From Euborellia annulipes (taxonomy: Eukaryota; Arthropoda; Insecta; Dermaptera; Anisolabididae), in assembly GCA_023213315.1 (NCBI GenBank), contig JAKCPI010014905.1:1-64000 (forward strand): a stretch of DNA of 64,000 nucleotides, given 5' to 3'. Below the pieces are notes generated by a model that was not told where the DNA came from, ran no database searches, and worked only from the letters and a program-made list of their open reading frames with translations. Made by a program: the position numbers and the translations under genes. Each line of letters begins with the position of its first letter. The first letter of the stretch is position 1. This document shows positions 30,841-63,420 of the stretch, one piece after another.

Positions 30841-31704
30841 CAGGGTCCGCCATCTAACTTTTTTTTTAACTAGCGGTTATTTCAACACTGGTAACCTTAA
30901 TGTCACTTCTGATTTGACAGAAAGTCAGTTTTATCCTTCCGCTGAACGAAAATGGTTGTGTATACGCTTGAGGAACGCGTGAAAATAGTGCAGTTTTACT
31001 TTGAAAATCATGGTAATGTTGCGACAATTACGTACGGAAATGGGAAGAAAAGAGGCGCCATCAGCTCCGTATGTGGGTTTTCTTTTGAAGAAATTGAGAG
31101 AAACTGGCACTATTATTGACAAACCAACACGTGATAAGCCAAAAACAGTGCGCACAACCGAGAATATCGCAGGAGCCGCCGTTACGGTTAATGGCGACCG
31201 CCATGATTTCTGATTGTTTGTTCCCGAAACTTGAAGAGGAAGACTTGGACAACAATTGGTTCCAACAAGACGGCTCTCCGTGTCACACAGCTAAACTTAC
31301 AACCGATCTTTTGCGCACTGTTTTCGGAGACCGAATTATCAGCAGAAATTCTGATGTCGTTTGGCCGCCTCGGAGCTGCGATTTGACACCGTTAGACTAT
31401 TATTTGTGGGGAGCCGTCAAAGACAAATGTTATGCAGACAAACCAGAGACAATTCAAGCTTTGAAGGACAACATTGGTGCAGCCATAGCTAAAATAGAGC
31501 CGTATACTATCACAAATGTACTCAAAAATTGGACCGACCGTATGGCGTACTGCAAGGCCAGCCGAGGCAGCCATTTGAATGAAATAGTATTTCATAAATA
31601 ATCGGAAGGTGTATACTTCACTATGAAAAAATAAATTTGAAAATTCATCCAACCGTTTTTGTTTTATTGCATTTTTAAAAAAAAATGTTAAATGGCGGAC
31701 CCTG
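30841..31704 (+). mobile_element. Mariner-like DNA transposon, internally deleted
   Basis: Bounded by TA dinucleotides (30839-30840 and 31705-31706), as expected for Tc1/mariner insertion. TIRs begin CAGGGTCCGCCATCTAAC on the left and match the inverse of the right end GTTAAATGGCGGACCCTG, followed on each side by T/A runs. The 864-bp element contains the two ends of a transposase gene with the middle missing, so it cannot supply its own transposase. It lies in a presumed intron. Confidence 0.9.
30952..31600 (+). pseudogene. Broken mariner-type transposase
   Basis: ATG at 30952 opens MVVYTLEERVKIVQFYFENH, the start of the N-terminal helix-turn-helix DNA-binding region. A frameshift near 31010-31020 moves the reading to the frame carrying LRTEMGRKEAPSAPYVGFLL (from 31001). 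After TRDKPKTVRTTENIA the central catalytic region is deleted, then VNGDR resumes and a further frameshift leads to NNWFQQDGSPCHTA and WPPRSCDLTPLDYYLWG (frame 31116-31601). The Asp of FQQDG and the Asp of SCDLTP are the second and third members of the DDE/D triad of this superfamily, with 36 residues between them. The sequence ends at TAA near 31601. It is unlikely to make active enzyme. Confidence 0.85.
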
Positions 31705-39674: not shown

Positions 39675-39679
39675 ATTAC

Positions 39680-40253
39680 TGTTCAGTCCCTGAATGAAAC
39701 GCCACCCGCAAAACGCCAACTAGCACAAATTGACCGTTAGAAGGCAAACTCCCAAGACCAGCGCGCATGCTCTGTGAGTAAGCCTTCACCCCTCTATAAA
39801 AGGAGCCTCGCTGGCTCTCTGCTCTCATTCGCCGTTCTGCCTTCATTCGACACACAACTACGCAAGTCGCAATCGGGAATCAACACTAAATCAACAACTC
39901 TCTTTCTCTCTCCTGCCTTGAGTAACTTACAATTACGTCAAGTCGAAAGCGGGAATCATCATTCTAAACATTCAACTCTCATTCTCCCTCGCCTCGAGCA
40001 CACTTACAACGGCGTCGTCGCAAGCGGAAATCAACACTCTCAAGAGCCAAGCAAACTTGCTTCTCTATCAACCGTCAACTCTCATCAAGCATTCAATCAT
40101 CAACTAACATCAAGAAGTCATCAAGCATTTTATTTATTTTTGTATTTAAATTCGTGTTATAATTATTTCAACCTTTCATCGTTATTAAAATTATTATTTT
40201 AAATCAACTCTTTTTTTTTGAGAATCACCCGGTATCCTTTCCTGGATCCAACA
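39680..40253 (+). repeat. 5' LTR
   Basis: TG...CA ends. A TATA box, TATAAAAGG, at 39795-39803 predicts a start near 39825, dividing U3 from R. Downstream of it, three loosely repeated blocks contain AGTCGCAATCGGGAATCAAC, AGTCGAAAGCGGGAATCATC and GTCGCAAGCGGAAATCAAC at roughly 70-90 bp spacing. The long open frame across the LTR starts at a GTG codon and covers the TATA box, so it is not a credible gene. Confidence 0.95.
39795..39803 (+). promoter_or_regulatory. TATA box of 5' LTR
   Basis: CTCTATAAAAGGAGCC is a strong TATA element; the same site occurs in the 3' LTR at 41974-41982, which could drive transcription into the neighbouring exon at 42569. Confidence 0.8.
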
Positions 40254-40337
40254 TTTGATCCTCTCGAGCCAGATAACCATCGCCTAAAAAATCCACTACT
40301 CTCTCAACGGTCCTTCGAAGTCGGTGATTCTCAAAAA
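40215..40337 (+). ncRNA. Long-range 15-bp pairing between LTR end and leader
   Basis: TTTTTGAGAATCACC (40215-40229, in U5) is perfectly complementary to GGTGATTCTCAAAAA (40323-40337, in the leader). In the genomic RNA this would form a closed domain holding the LTR end, the region where the primer-binding site should be, and the sequence up to the stem-loop array. The function is inferred by analogy with U5-leader pairings of other retroelements. Confidence 0.6.
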
Positions 40338-40342
40338 CAACA

Positions 40343-40640
40343 AGCCCTTTTCAGGGCTACATCAAACAAAAGTATGCTAAAAACAACAAGCCCTTTTCAG
40401 GGCTACATCAAACAAAAGTAAGCTAAAAACAACAAGCCCTTTTCAGGGCTACATCATACAAAAAGTAACCTAAAAACAAAACAAGCCCTTTTCAGGACTA
40501 CATCATACAAAAGTAACGGCTAAAAAACAAAACAAGCCCTTTTCAGGGCTACATCAAACAAAAAGTAAGCTAAAAACAAAACAAGTCCTTTTCAGGGCTA
40601 TATGCAAAAGCTAATTACAAAACAAGTCCTTTTCAGGGCT
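40343..40640 (+). repeat. Array of seven histone-mRNA-like stem-loops
   Basis: The 16-mer AGCCCTTTTCAGGGCT (or close variants) occurs at 40343, 40389, 40435, 40484, 40535, 40584 and 40625, spaced 41-51 bp, in a unit also containing AACA before it and ACATCAAACAAAAGTAAGC after it. Each folds into a 6-bp stem with a UUUC loop. Relative to the canonical metazoan histone 3' stem-loop GGCTCTTTTCAGAGCC the four changed bases form two compensated pairs. Copies 6 and 7 have AGTCCT, giving a U-G pair; copy 4 has one mismatch (AGGACT). It is noncoding leader RNA upstream of the gag ATG at 40866. Confidence 0.9.
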
Positions 40641-40665
40641 GAGGCGATTTTGGTGCACATTCGGA

Positions 40666-40782
40666 TTAGCGGGGGTCTCTAGGCATTCCGCCTGCCCGCT
40701 AAAACGAAAAATCAATAAGTCCCTGGTCAGTCGGACTCTTTCCGGCATAGAGGGGGTCTCTAGGCAGTCCGCCTGCCCTCTA
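40666..40782 (+). ncRNA. Two related leader hairpins with a shared apex
   Basis: Hairpin 1 (40666-40702) has outer stem TTAGCGGG/CCCGCTAA; hairpin 2 (40748-40782) has TAGAGGG/CCCTCTA. Both enclose GGTCTCTAGGCA, T or G, then TCCGCCTGC, in which AGGC and GCCT form an inner stem. One outer pair changes C-G to A-T between the two, a compensatory change that supports RNA structure. They precede the start codon by about 80-200 nt. Dimerisation or packaging is a guess. Confidence 0.7.
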
Positions 40783-40865
40783 AGTCGTAAAGGTTTGGCC
40801 TCTTCGGGATAAAAAAATCCACATATATTTCTTTCCTTCCTTGGTCTCGATCCATATCCTAAATC

Positions 40866-41702
40866 ATGGAAAAATATCAAGAAGAAAGAAATTATATACA
40901 AGCTCGCCTGAACCGCACCAAGAAAAACATCAACAAATACAAAGACATAGAAGATACAGAAACCACCATCCGCTGGGAAAAATATCTTCAAAATCTACAA
41001 GAGATAGAAAAAGAATTCTACGTTCTTGACAAGCAGCTACAAAAGCTTGTCAAAAACGCGGAATTTAAAAAGCTATCACAAGAAACGGATGACCTCTATG
41101 AAGAAATAGAAAATGTCATCATATCCACTCAGTGCCACATCAAAAAAATGCAAACTCCAGTTGCCGAAACACAAGACAACACCCCAACCGCTAAATGGGG
41201 ACACATCAAAAGCGCAGAAGAAAATCCTGCTGATTGTGTGTCACGAGCATTACTGCCTCAAGAACTCCAAAATCATCCTCTTTGGTGGCATGGACCGGAT
41301 GTTGAACTCCTAGCTGATCAACAACCTCACAATCCAAAAGAAGACGCAATTGGCCAACTGAAAAGCCAACCTGAATTTGTGTCTTCCCAAAGCGCCATCT
41401 CCAGTCTATGTCCCTTCATAGATGAACAAGGCCTTCTAAGAGCCTCAGGGCTTCTAACAAACTCTGAGCTGCTCTTAGAACAGAGGCAACCAATTCTGCT
41501 ACCAAAAAATTGTCATCTAACAATTCTTATCATCAACCTCGAAGAACACGAACGAAATCAACACGCTGGACTTCAAGCCAATCTCGACTCAACTCTCATG
41601 GAAAAATCCAATCCTGAAAACAAATCCTCTTCTCCAATCTACAATATTCATCATCATGCTCTTTCCAAGAATTACGATCCATCCATGAAAATCCACTTAT
41701 AA
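40866..41702 (+). CDS. BEL/Pao gag-pol remnant, fused in frame (278 aa)
   Basis: The ATG at 40866 begins MEKYQEERNYIQ. Residues 1 to about 100 are charged and helical (heptad-like E/K/L pattern), as in the N-terminal gag region of BEL/Pao elements. Near residue 118 the sequence switches to SAEENPADCVSR and HPLWWHGPD, typical of the RNase H-to-integrase linker of BEL/Pao pol. LCPFIDEQGLLRASG and RQPILLP then follow, the part just before the integrase zinc finger, with HLT and EEHERNQHAG as the start of the HHCC motif. The catalytic regions are absent. A second deletion follows, and the frame ends at TAA (41700-41702). It probably encodes no enzyme but could make a gag-like protein. Confidence 0.85.
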   Translation: MEKYQEERNYIQARLNRTKKNINKYKDIEDTETTIRWEKYLQNLQEIEKEFYVLDKQLQKLVKNAEFKKLSQETDDLYEEIENVIISTQCHIKKMQTPVAETQDNTPTAKWGHIKSAEENPADCVSRALLPQELQNHPLWWHGPDVELLADQQPHNPKEDAIGQLKSQPEFVSSQSAISSLCPFIDEQGLLRASGLLTNSELLLEQRQPILLPKNCHLTILIINLEEHERNQHAGLQANLDSTLMEKSNPENKSSSPIYNIHHHALSKNYDPSMKIHL

Positions 41703-41858
41703 CCAACAGCGCAAAAAAAAATCCCAGTTTGCGTTGCTCCGATCCTAAATCCTTCAACGTCAAACTCTCTCCCGAAGATCTGCAAGCAACTCTACAATCG
41801 CTATCAAAATTTCACCACTACCTTCTGGTGAAAGACAAGCCTTTCACGCCGGGGGGTA
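41703..41858 (+). pseudogene. Residual pol C-terminus and polypurine tract
   Basis: From about 41757 an open frame reads FNVKLSPEDLQATLQ and PFTPGGMFS, the style of the C-terminal end of a BEL/Pao pol running into the 3' LTR. GGGGGG at 41851-41856 just before the LTR is the likely polypurine tract for plus-strand priming. Confidence 0.55.
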
Positions 41859-42432
41859 TGTTCAGTCCCTGAATGAAACGCCACCCGCAAAACGCCAACT
41901 AGCACAAATTGACCGTTAGAAGGCAAACTCCCAAGACCAGCGCGCATGCTCTGTGAGTAAGCCTTCACCCCTCTATAAAAGGAGCCTCGCTGGCTCTCTG
42001 CTCTCATTCGCCGTTCTGCCTTCATTCGACACACAACTACGCAAGTCGCAATCGGGAATCAACACTAAATCAACAACTCTCTTTCTCTCTCCTGCCTTGA
42101 GTAACTTACAATTACGTCAAGTCGAAAGCGGGAATCATCATTCTAAACATTCAACTCTCATTCTCCCTCGCCTCGAGCACACTTACAACGGCGTCGTCGC
42201 AAGCGGAAATCAACACTCTCAAGAGCCAAGCAAACTTGCTTCTCTATCAACCGTCAACTCTCATCAAGCATTCAATCATCAACTAACATCAAGAAGTCAT
42301 CAAGCATTTTATTTATTTTTGTATTTAAATTCGTGTTATAATTATTTCAACCCTTTCATCGTTATTAAAATTATTATTTTAAATCAACTCTTTTTTTTGA
42401 GAATCACCCGGTATCCTTTCCTGGATCCAACA
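41859..42432 (+). repeat. 3' LTR
   Basis: Virtually identical to the 5' LTR; its TATA box is at 41974-41982. A sense-oriented LTR promoter this close to an exon could give chimeric transcripts. Confidence 0.95.
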
Positions 42433-42568
42433 ATTACATTCGATATTTTTTAATTTTATTCTAATCTTTTCTGGTATAAAAGTTAAATATTGAATGATGA
42501 TATATTGATATTATTTTCAATATATTTTTTATGTTGACATCCAATTAATTGCAAACTTTTTATTACAG

Positions 42569-42832
42569 GGAACGCCGGGAGCAGGAGGCCCGGGAGGCGG
42601 AAAAACAGCGGGAAAAAAGAAAGAGAACGAGAGCGAGAGAAGGAGCGGGAACGTGAGCGGGAGAGGGAAGGGAACGAGAACGAGAACGAGAGCAGAGCGT
42701 GAGCGCATGGAGCGAGAGCGAGATCGAGATCGAGCCGAACGCATCGAACGGGAACGCCTCGAAAATCAACGAGCTGCCGAACAAGCTGTTCATAAACATT
42801 TCGAGGAGTCATTGCGGCTCGCACAGCAAAAG
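42569..42832 (+). CDS. Arg/Glu-rich internal exon candidate with frame slips
   Basis: A polypyrimidine-like stretch and acceptor TTATTACAG precede 42569; the donor GTAATT follows 42832. The composition is Arg/Glu repeats far from the local A/T background. Reading from 42570 gives ERREQEAREAEKQREK, then a slip at AAAAAA (42613-42618) into ERERERE. Further slips occur near 42670 and 42692. The last part reads AERERMERERDRDRAER and ends QAVHKHFEESLRLAQQK. One frame stays open throughout but gives an implausible N-terminal half. The final HFEESL resembles both the Tondu motif (VxxHFxxSL) of vestigial-like proteins and a segment of GSE1-type proteins; Atrophin/RERE proteins also have RE repeats. 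The identity is unresolved. Confidence 0.6.
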
Positions 42833-44507
42833 GTAATTGTCGACAAATTTTTATATATATTTATTTTTTAATGCCCATTTGCACCATAACATCTTACATC
42901 TTGAGCTCGCCTTGAGGCTATTCAACTATTGATATATAGAATATATATTTTTTGGAATATATAGTTTGATTGTTATTACTTATGTGATAGAGGCACAAAT
43001 AGAGTATCTTCCAAGACCTGATTTCCTGATTTCCAATTCAATTGTAAGATGTAAGACGAGCTTAAGATCTAAGGTATGTTGATGCAACCGCTCATAACTC
43101 TGATATGATAAGAAAAAGTATCTTCTTGAAATGGACCAAAAGTCAAATATTCGATGTGCTTAGTGTTTTATTTATTGCCGTCTTATTCTCGTGCTATATT
43201 GCACGCCTACAGACTGAAGATTGTGATCTAATCACATTTAAATTCTTCAAATTAAATGTTAATTTTTTTTCAACCTTTGACGTCTAAAATATTTATAAAA
43301 TTTGATGTTTTAATAAGTTCTGATAACTTTAAAACCCAACCAAAATTTTTCTAACCTCTTTGCCTAGTAATTAATGTTACCAAATTCACTCTGTTCTATT
43401 AGGGATTAATTCATGCCATTGTTGGAACGAATCTTATTGTTGTGTTTTTATTGAAGAATTGGAATTTCTGAAATTAAAATTTTTTAAGAGCCACTCGCTC
43501 TTACTATATTTCCTTGTAATCTTAATTAAAAAAAATAATGCATTATATTTGTGAAACTTCCTCACAGAGTTTTTTGGTTATAACAACGACCTACAAAAGA
43601 AACATGCCATTGTCTAGAAAAGACAAGCTGGCTAATTATTTTTATATGAAATAGTACTTTTCCTTATCGTAAAGATAAAAGAAAATATCTTATCGGATAC
43701 TCAACATATTCAGCTACTACTATTAAGTATTCATATATTTTGAAGCCTAAAAAATAGGTTATCATGGTTAAGACTATAACTCATTTTTAATTTCCCAATA
43801 TAGAGAAGGAATAGGTGATTGAATCTTATATATTTATTGTAATTCATGTTGCTAATGTATTTATTTAGCCGGTTTCGTCATAATTATAGAAAATAATTCA
43901 GGTTAAATTCTTAGTCGTAAATGCACTCTATTTACTTAAATAGATAATTAAATAAACCAATTCCAAAGCATTTTTAAATCAAGTTTTAATAGACAAGGAT
44001 AAAATAACTTTAAATAAAATATTATCTTTCTTACGCAAAATTTCAATATCTCATTTTTCCCATGAGAATTCCAGTAGGTCTTTTAAAACGTCATTAGACA
44101 AATGATAAGTAAAATATTTGAATTTATTTTATCGTCTCTAGGGTCTAATTATCATAAGACAAAGGAAACAAAAAAAAAATATTTACTTATTTTTAAAATA
44201 AATATTCTTATCCAAATTTGATCGTTCTAAATATCAATAATGAAAACAGCTAGTTTTCTCTCTCTATCACTCACTATTTTATATTTTAACTCTAACATCC
44301 AGGTAAACTTTTTTTTTTTTTGGAAAGAACCTGCTTGCTATAAAATTTTATTATAGAATCTTTTTATGGTAATGATTTATTAATAAAGTAATTTTTCCAT
44401 TTAGTCACAGAACATGACATTTGAAAGTTGAATTGTCACCGCGAAGTAATAACTGCAAATTTTTCACTTGGTTTCATCATTTGAAACAATTGAATAATAA
44501 AAAAAAA
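42833..44507. other. Presumed intron, no feature recognised
   Basis: Moderately complex A/T-rich DNA. A 60-codon frame (43105-43287) contains a hydrophobic stretch but no splice borders or known motif. Nothing else supported. Confidence 0.4.
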
Positions 44508-62404: not shown

Positions 62405-63420
62405 AATATGATAAAGTACCACATTAGTTTGGCCTGTATTGATTTGGTTCAATTGAAAAATTATTCATTATCATAAAAAATGACTCGTAAATATCAAAAT
62501 TCAAAACTATAGTTAATAGGGCCTTATTTGCGTGAGGCTTCAAATAAAGTACCACATTAGTTTGGTCTATTTTGATCAAAACCACCATATAGTGACGTCA
62601 TCAAAAATGACTCTTTAAGTATTACATTTCACACCTCTAGCCCATCGGGAAGTCTTTTGAAATTACATTAATTCGCGAAGGGTTTCAAATAAAGTACCAC
62701 ATTAGTTTGGTCTATTTTGATCAAAACCACCATATAGTGGCGTCATCAAAAATGACTCTTAAGTATTACATTTCACACCTCTAGCCCATCGGGAAGTCTT
62801 TTGAAATTACATTAATTCGCGAAGGGTTTCAAATAAAGTACCACATTAATTTGGTCTATTTTGATCAAAACCACCATATAGTGGCGTCATCAAAAATGAC
62901 TCTTAAGTATTACATTTCACACCTCTAGCCCATCGGGAAGTCTTTTGAAATTACATTAATTCGCGAAGGGTTTCAAATAAAGTACCACATTAATTTGGTC
63001 TATTTTGATCAAAACCACCATATAGTGGCGTCATCAAAAATGACTCTTAAGTATTACATTTCACACCTCTAGCCCATCGGGAAGTCTTTTGAAATTACAT
63101 TAATTCGCGAAGGGTTTCAAATAAAGTACCACATTAGTTTGGTCTATTTTGATCAAAACCACCATATAGTGGCGTCATCAAAAATGACTCTTAAGTATTA
63201 CATTTCACACCTCTAGCCCATCGGGAAGTCTTTTGAAATTACATTAATTCACGAAGGGTTTCAAATAAAGTACCACATTAGTTTGGTCCATTTTGGTAAA
63301 ACCAAACTCACAATTTGCGTCATCAAAAATGACTCTTAAATATCAAATTTCACACCTCTAGCTCATCGGGAAGTGTCCTTAACAAAGCCATAAAGTTGGT
63401 GACCTTGAAAGAGTAAGTTA
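62405..63420. repeat. 144-bp satellite array, about seven units
   Basis: The anchor CAAATAAAGTACCACATTA recurs at 62541, 62686, 62830, 62974, 63118 and 63262, a period of 144-145 bp; a diverged start unit begins near 62408. Central units are almost identical, with G/A variation in CACATTAGTTTGG versus CACATTAATTTGG. The first (62408-62540) and last (63262-63405) are clearly diverged. Each unit carries CACCATATAGTGGCGTCATC and CTAGCCCATCGGGAAG. TAAATAAAAGCATTT, an end motif of the adjacent foldback, reappears just after the array (63419). Confidence 0.92.

Follow-up and report, generated by a model that had tools for sequence, protein, structure and literature searches.

The closest described counterpart of the sequence analyzed here is the histone 3' stem-loop (RF00032), which is bound by SLBP. 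Passages of PMC2781718 describe SLBP as needed by mammalian cells to export histone mRNA and to translate it. They also state that the histone downstream element (HDE), the target of U7 snRNA, is removed and degraded during histone mRNA maturation, and that in 2009 no role of SLBP was known beyond histone production. According to extracts of PMC10388802, Arg181 of SLBP contacts G7, the second G of the stem, and full binding requires no more than a 20-nt hairpin preceded by two adenines and followed by one. The human histone stem-loop list excerpted from PMC7807067 includes the sequence GGCCCTTTTCAGGGCC.

We analyzed a stretch of 64,000 nucleotides from Euborellia annulipes (hereafter the window), in which seven hairpins stand in tandem at 40343..40640, where the original prediction had placed them. 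Dinucleotide-shuffled windows yielded a mean of 0.26 pattern matches and never reached seven (0/100). All copies lie on the plus strand with a spacing of 41 to 51 nt; four are exact copies of AGCCCTTTTCAGGGCT and the other three carry one mismatch. Copies 1 (40343..40358), 2 (40389..40404), 3 (40435..40450), 4 (40484..40499) and 5 (40535..40550) were recognized by the pattern and, below the gathering score, by the Rfam Histone3 model. Copies 6 (40584..40599) and 7 (40625..40640) are the two in which U-G was said to replace C-G, and both do contain the U-G pair. RNA folding renders six of the seven copies as 6 bp with a UUUC loop, the exception being copy 4. The stem of this copy, AGCCCTTTTCAGGACT, contains a C-A mismatch that had been overlooked, and the copy folds poorly (-1.4 vs -8.2 kcal/mol). 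The leader as a whole forms a more stable fold than its shuffles do (z -4.71, 0/100 as good). Directly past the array are twin bulged, longer hairpins (40662-40710 and 40743-40791) that both contain GGGGGTCTCTAGGCAKTCCGCCTGCCC; one pair of the outer stem differs between them, with compensation. They are retained in the relatives L013-L018, and a related one is found at 1141-1185 of L023, upstream of the array that we call family D below.

The element that carries the array (39680-42432, plus strand) is complete, young and internally shortened. Its 574-bp LTRs, aligned as a pair on the plus strand (5' LTR, TG..CA, 39680..40253; 3' LTR, 41859..42432), differ by two one-base gaps, and the target-site duplication ATTAC is read on the left at 39675..39679 and on the right at 42433..42437. 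A TATA box is read from the sequence inside the 5' LTR at 39795-39801. The hairpin array starts 89 nt past the 5' LTR, behind a plus-strand leader segment (40254..40342) in which no primer-binding site was identified. Six relatives, L013-L018, share the first 77 nt of the leader at 94.8-98.7% identity. A 278-aa ORF was called in the shortened internal region (40866..41702, plus strand). It gave three weak Pfam matches, every one under the cut-off, and no relatives among the proteins of its size range or in the viral and genome contigs searched. Pao-type pol went undetected by Pfam in the shortened window copy and was seen in the relative L018, which encodes a Pao peptidase (PF05380, E 2.3e-48) and DUF1759. 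Because L018 matches the window LTR and leader, we assign the window element to BEL/Pao; the paired LTRs and the flanking 5-bp ATTAC duplication are those of a BEL/Pao member. The proposed location of the array in the leader of such a retrotransposon is thus borne out, the identity coming by way of L018.

Three other features of the window were noted. An open stretch at 42509-42868, rich in Arg and Glu and less than 100 nt past the element, looks exon-like by eye, and an open frame at 31098-31598 is, also by eye, a candidate mariner-type transposase. At 62539-63374 there is a 144-nt tandem repeat of 5.8 copies with 97% matches.

The hairpins were compared with those of the host's own histone genes. 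Searching for histones with Pfam, we obtained 58 matches and fetched 30 loci. GGCCCTTTTCAGGGCC is present in all 30 of the loci fetched from these 58 matches, with 60 occurrences in 56 distinct contexts, and is mostly preceded by the flank AACAAC. Of its 16 letters, 14 are equal in the window hairpin AGCCCTTTTCAGGGCT; the remaining two form the bottom pair, which is A-U in the element against G-C in the host genes. As every fetched locus carries GGCCCTTTTCAGGGCC, the window hairpin differs from that of its host by the bottom pair alone, and the predicted resemblance to the histone 3' stem-loop is stronger than the letters of the window could show by themselves. Over 32 nt, the window leader also aligns with the 3' region of a host histone gene (90.6% identity, E 2.7e-5). 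None of 200 leader shuffles scored as high, with the best shuffle near (41.0 vs 41.9 bits).

The suggested check against Rfam gave a divided answer. At the gathering score nothing was found in the window, the best copy scoring 28.8 bits against the 34 required by Histone3. Copies 6 and 7 remained unmatched even when 721 bases were scanned at a relaxed threshold, under which the other five of the seven scored 28.8, 26.9, 26.4, 25.0 and 16.8 bits (E 4.8e-6 to 0.14). As a positive control, Histone3 was run on two of the 30 host loci, where the true stem-loops scored 36.9, 36.4, 33.1 and 33.1 bits, so that two of these four are themselves below 34.

A second component of histone 3' ends, the HDE, was scored with a matrix built from 54 host histone contexts, in which it lies 16-19 nt past the stem with a median of 22.7 bits (range 5.4 to 25.3). 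HDE-like stretches on the plus strand follow window copies 1 (40364..40379; 7.7 bits, 5 nt past the stem; equalled by 0.02 of 300 shuffles), 2 (40410..40425; 4.6 bits; 0.013 of 300), 3 (40457..40472; 7.4 bits; 0.007 of 300), 4 (40506..40521; 9.3 bits; 0.003 of 300) and 5 (40557..40572; 11.6 bits; 0 of 300). Past copy 6 no HDE is clear (1.4 bits), and past copy 7 there is none (-16.4 bits). The five stretches begin 5-6 nt from the stem, outside the 16-19 nt of the host, and are weaker than the host's. Since the leader with its hairpins masked no longer stands out (20/200 shuffles match the histone loci as well), the evidence for an HDE in the window rests on this positional test, in which the copies are not independent. 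We regard it as suggestive.

Relatives of the window element were used to ask how the array had been kept. The comparison covers seven family-A arrays (family A being the window's BEL/Pao family), namely the window and six relatives, at loci chosen by an exact hairpin match, which favours intact hairpins. They hold 7, 9, 8, 9, 8, 3 and 8 hairpins, with the window given first. The array is kept in all six relatives compared (3 to 9 hairpins each), for loci that were fetched through the hairpin itself. Across 23 distinct family-A units, variation touches 2 of the 16 columns of the hairpin and 36 of the 44 columns of the spacer (Fisher 1.5e-6). There is no departure in the core CCTTTTCAGG, and the HDE-like stretch has the same AAAAG throughout. 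No doubled spacing, the trace of a hidden decayed hairpin, was seen when the family-A arrays were scanned for it.

The original prediction further held that the differing stem pairs are compensated and named covariation as a check. In a set of 19 distinct hairpins, drawn from the host and every family, two of the six pairs change on both sides and 96.5% of cells pair. The support from covariation is modest, as 17 of 500 shuffles equal the score, a count in which kinship among the sequences is uncontrolled.

The hairpin occurs well beyond the window. There are 364 exact matches to AAGYCCTTTTCAGGRCT in the 903-Mb genome and none to the reversed control pattern. Among the matches listed, which fall in 31 contigs whose surroundings were all fetched, 29 contigs belong to three repeat families (18 in family B, 7 in A and 4 in C), one is an unclassed array (family D), and one, L071, is placed in none. 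The count for family B includes L028 and L067, which were placed by short or weak matches, and that for family A includes L020, a more distant relative. With Histone3, the family-A arrays scored 24.8 to 28.4 bits and two family-B loci 27.9 and 25.1 bits (E up to 0.01). At E up to 1, L022, L023 and L024 scored 22.9, 20.3 and 19.7 bits, and L020 and L025 were unmatched.

Family B consists of a repeat that bears a promoter and is joined to a LINE; the latter has a zinc-knuckle ORF1 and an endonuclease-RT ORF2. TATA and CCAAT boxes in family B first led us to read it as a histone-like gene, a reading that we abandoned; no histone ORF was seen there. Its matches to histone loci are confined to the stretches around its hairpins. 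Because L012 joins family-B 5' sequence to the end of the LINE ORF2 (133 nt at 97%), the data favour a single element over a LINE that merely inserted into family B in L027, though the point is not fully settled. Repeated promoter-hairpin blocks ahead of the LINE sequence, as well as tandem units of about 235 nt, were observed in L011, L012, L027, L059 and L073, and in L027 a second such block stands immediately behind the LINE tail. Family C resembles an LTR, some 1.0 kb long and running from TGTAGGGAA to TTCCTACA, with ATAT on both flanks in two copies. In its member L024, three hairpins lie downstream of a TATA box. In family D the units of the unclassed array measure about 31 nt.

The HDE differs among these families. 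In family B, L025 has an HDE of 24.6 bits at 19 nt, of authentic strength and spacing. In other family-B loci the score is 5.4 bits past the first hairpin, at 19 nt, and 16.4 bits past the second, at 29-32 nt; in L003 the matrix found nothing past the second hairpin. Two of four family-C copies score 14.3 (L024) and 9.4 bits at 12 nt, with scores of about zero in the other two. In family D the scores are negative past all 13 hairpins scored. When hairpins were masked, only 2 and 3 of 200 shuffles matched the histone loci as highly as the family-C copies did, and 9 of 200 as highly as L025. The corresponding counts are 72/200 for L012, the main family-B copy, and 157/200 for family D, whose unmasked match is equalled by 8/200 shuffles. 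A putative HDE is thus well supported, at the level of sequence, in some family-C copies and in one family-B copy, and it is absent from family D. Family C (L024, 1697-1797) and family B (L025, 1665-1772) were also observed to have a common hairpin-HDE-hairpin block, 74% over 112 nt, which suggests an exchange of the module between them. As the HDE is lost from mature histone mRNA, a captured HDE would indicate genomic DNA or an uncut precursor as the source.

The explanation that we hold to be probable, though far from certain, is that the array is a set of histone 3' stem-loops of the host's type, which would bind SLBP. The element would have gained the hairpin from the replication-dependent histone genes of its host, or converged on them, and the hairpin would subsequently have been multiplied into an array. 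The window copies possess the G contacted by SLBP and the UUUC loop, and an adenine follows the stem in six of seven; the bases before the stem are CA, against AC in host histone genes. Each hairpin in the element RNA may bind host SLBP, and the bound RNA might be exported, stabilized or translated when SLBP is abundant, that is, in S phase and possibly in oocytes and early embryos. In view of the part played by SLBP in histone mRNA export and translation, we favour its recruitment minus cleavage for the window leader. With the HDE-like stretch 5-6 nt rather than 16-19 nt from the stem, cutting by U7 snRNP would be inefficient, and binding might occur without cleavage. More tentatively, and as a possibility to which we would not commit ourselves, several kinds of retrotransposon may each have taken the histone 3' module (stem-loop and HDE) into their 5' regions, recent-looking copies keeping the SLBP site with the U7 site shifted or lost, so that the RNA would be tied to S phase uncut.

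Other origins and uses of the array have to be weighed against SLBP recruitment. Tandem arrays form easily in leaders, and a histone 3' fragment captured once could have been expanded by slippage during reverse transcription as a functionless passenger. The variable copy number of the family-A arrays (3 to 9) and the single base that separates units 1 and 2 of the window array are consistent with this. However, hairpins far less variable than their spacers, albeit at loci sampled by hairpin, and the presence of the hairpin in three repeat families of different classes speak against it, and we consider it unlikely. A position between LTR and gag, where packaging signals usually sit, would suit an array bound by Gag or used in packaging, with a likeness to histone hairpins that is accidental or a mere starting point; the two longer twin hairpins that follow at 40662-40710 and 40743-40791 would fit such a role. 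Yet the match to the host histone hairpin is near letter for letter, and the same hairpin turns up in a LINE-linked repeat. As a LINE lacks Gag, the latter finding makes a Gag array less likely, and we rate a packaging role as rather improbable.

A further reading takes the hairpins as a working histone-type 3' end, at which U7 snRNP would cut the leader in S phase to leave a short capped RNA, only uncut RNA being full length, so that the array would serve as a cell-cycle attenuator. HDE-like stretches behind hairpins in families A, B and C agree with it, as does the HDE of L025 with its host-like spacing and score. In the window, however, the stretch is too near the stem, and in the other family-B copies tested the HDE lies too far out at 29-32 nt, is weak at 19 nt or, past the second hairpin of L003, is absent. 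A cut leader would also mean a destroyed genomic RNA, and we find cleavage improbable. It is highly improbable that the hairpin conceals a 3' splice site (UUUUCAG/G): the loop strand does read UUUUCAGG, but in compensated relatives the CAG is replaced by AAG or GAG and the hairpin persists.

Searches outside the host were made with a two-hairpin pattern, which had no match in genome contigs and a single one in the viral collection (L001). L001 is, from its reading frames by eye, a bacterial replicon-like contig with 22-nt repeats at 1610-1697 that contain almost the same 16-mer, and it gave no Histone3 match at E up to 1. We therefore reject it as a chance likeness, which also means that the motif by itself proves little. 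L002 was dropped as well; its ORF list is phage-like by eye. Among the matches listed in the open-access literature, we found no report of a histone stem-loop or SLBP in connection with a retrotransposon, nor of a BEL/Pao leader bearing hairpins. A retroelement array of near-copies of a host hairpin offers a simple, testable route by which transposition could be coupled to S phase. That repeats of different classes carry the same module suggests that it was exchanged or that they converged on one host pathway, and the occurrence of several retroelements with repeated host-type histone hairpins suggests that they may borrow the machinery of cells that are copying their DNA.

When compared with the known systems, the window hairpins have in common with the histone 3' stem-loop (RF00032) the 6-bp stem, the UUUC loop, the G-C second pair and the U-A closing pair, together with a pyrimidine 5' strand and an A-rich 5' flank. 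They differ in the A-U bottom pair and a score below the Rfam gathering score, in their repetition, up to nine in the copies seen, and in their location, which is a 5' leader after a 5' LTR and not the 3' end of a message behind a histone coding sequence. The CAAAAGT..GCT-like stretch past five of the seven hairpins is similar to the HDE targeted by U7 snRNA, whereas its distance from the stem, 5-6 nt, is unlike the 16-19 nt of host histone genes. The frameshift RNA of SARS-CoV-2 (PMC12166091) is a viral RNA bound by SLBP, comparable to the SLBP site predicted here; unlike the window leader, it is described in the abstract without an array, a leader or a near-copy of the histone hairpin. BEL/Pao retrotransposons share the TG..CA LTRs, the 5-bp duplication and, in a relative of the window element, the Pao peptidase and DUF1759, while the window's family is set apart by a leader that bears histone-type hairpins.
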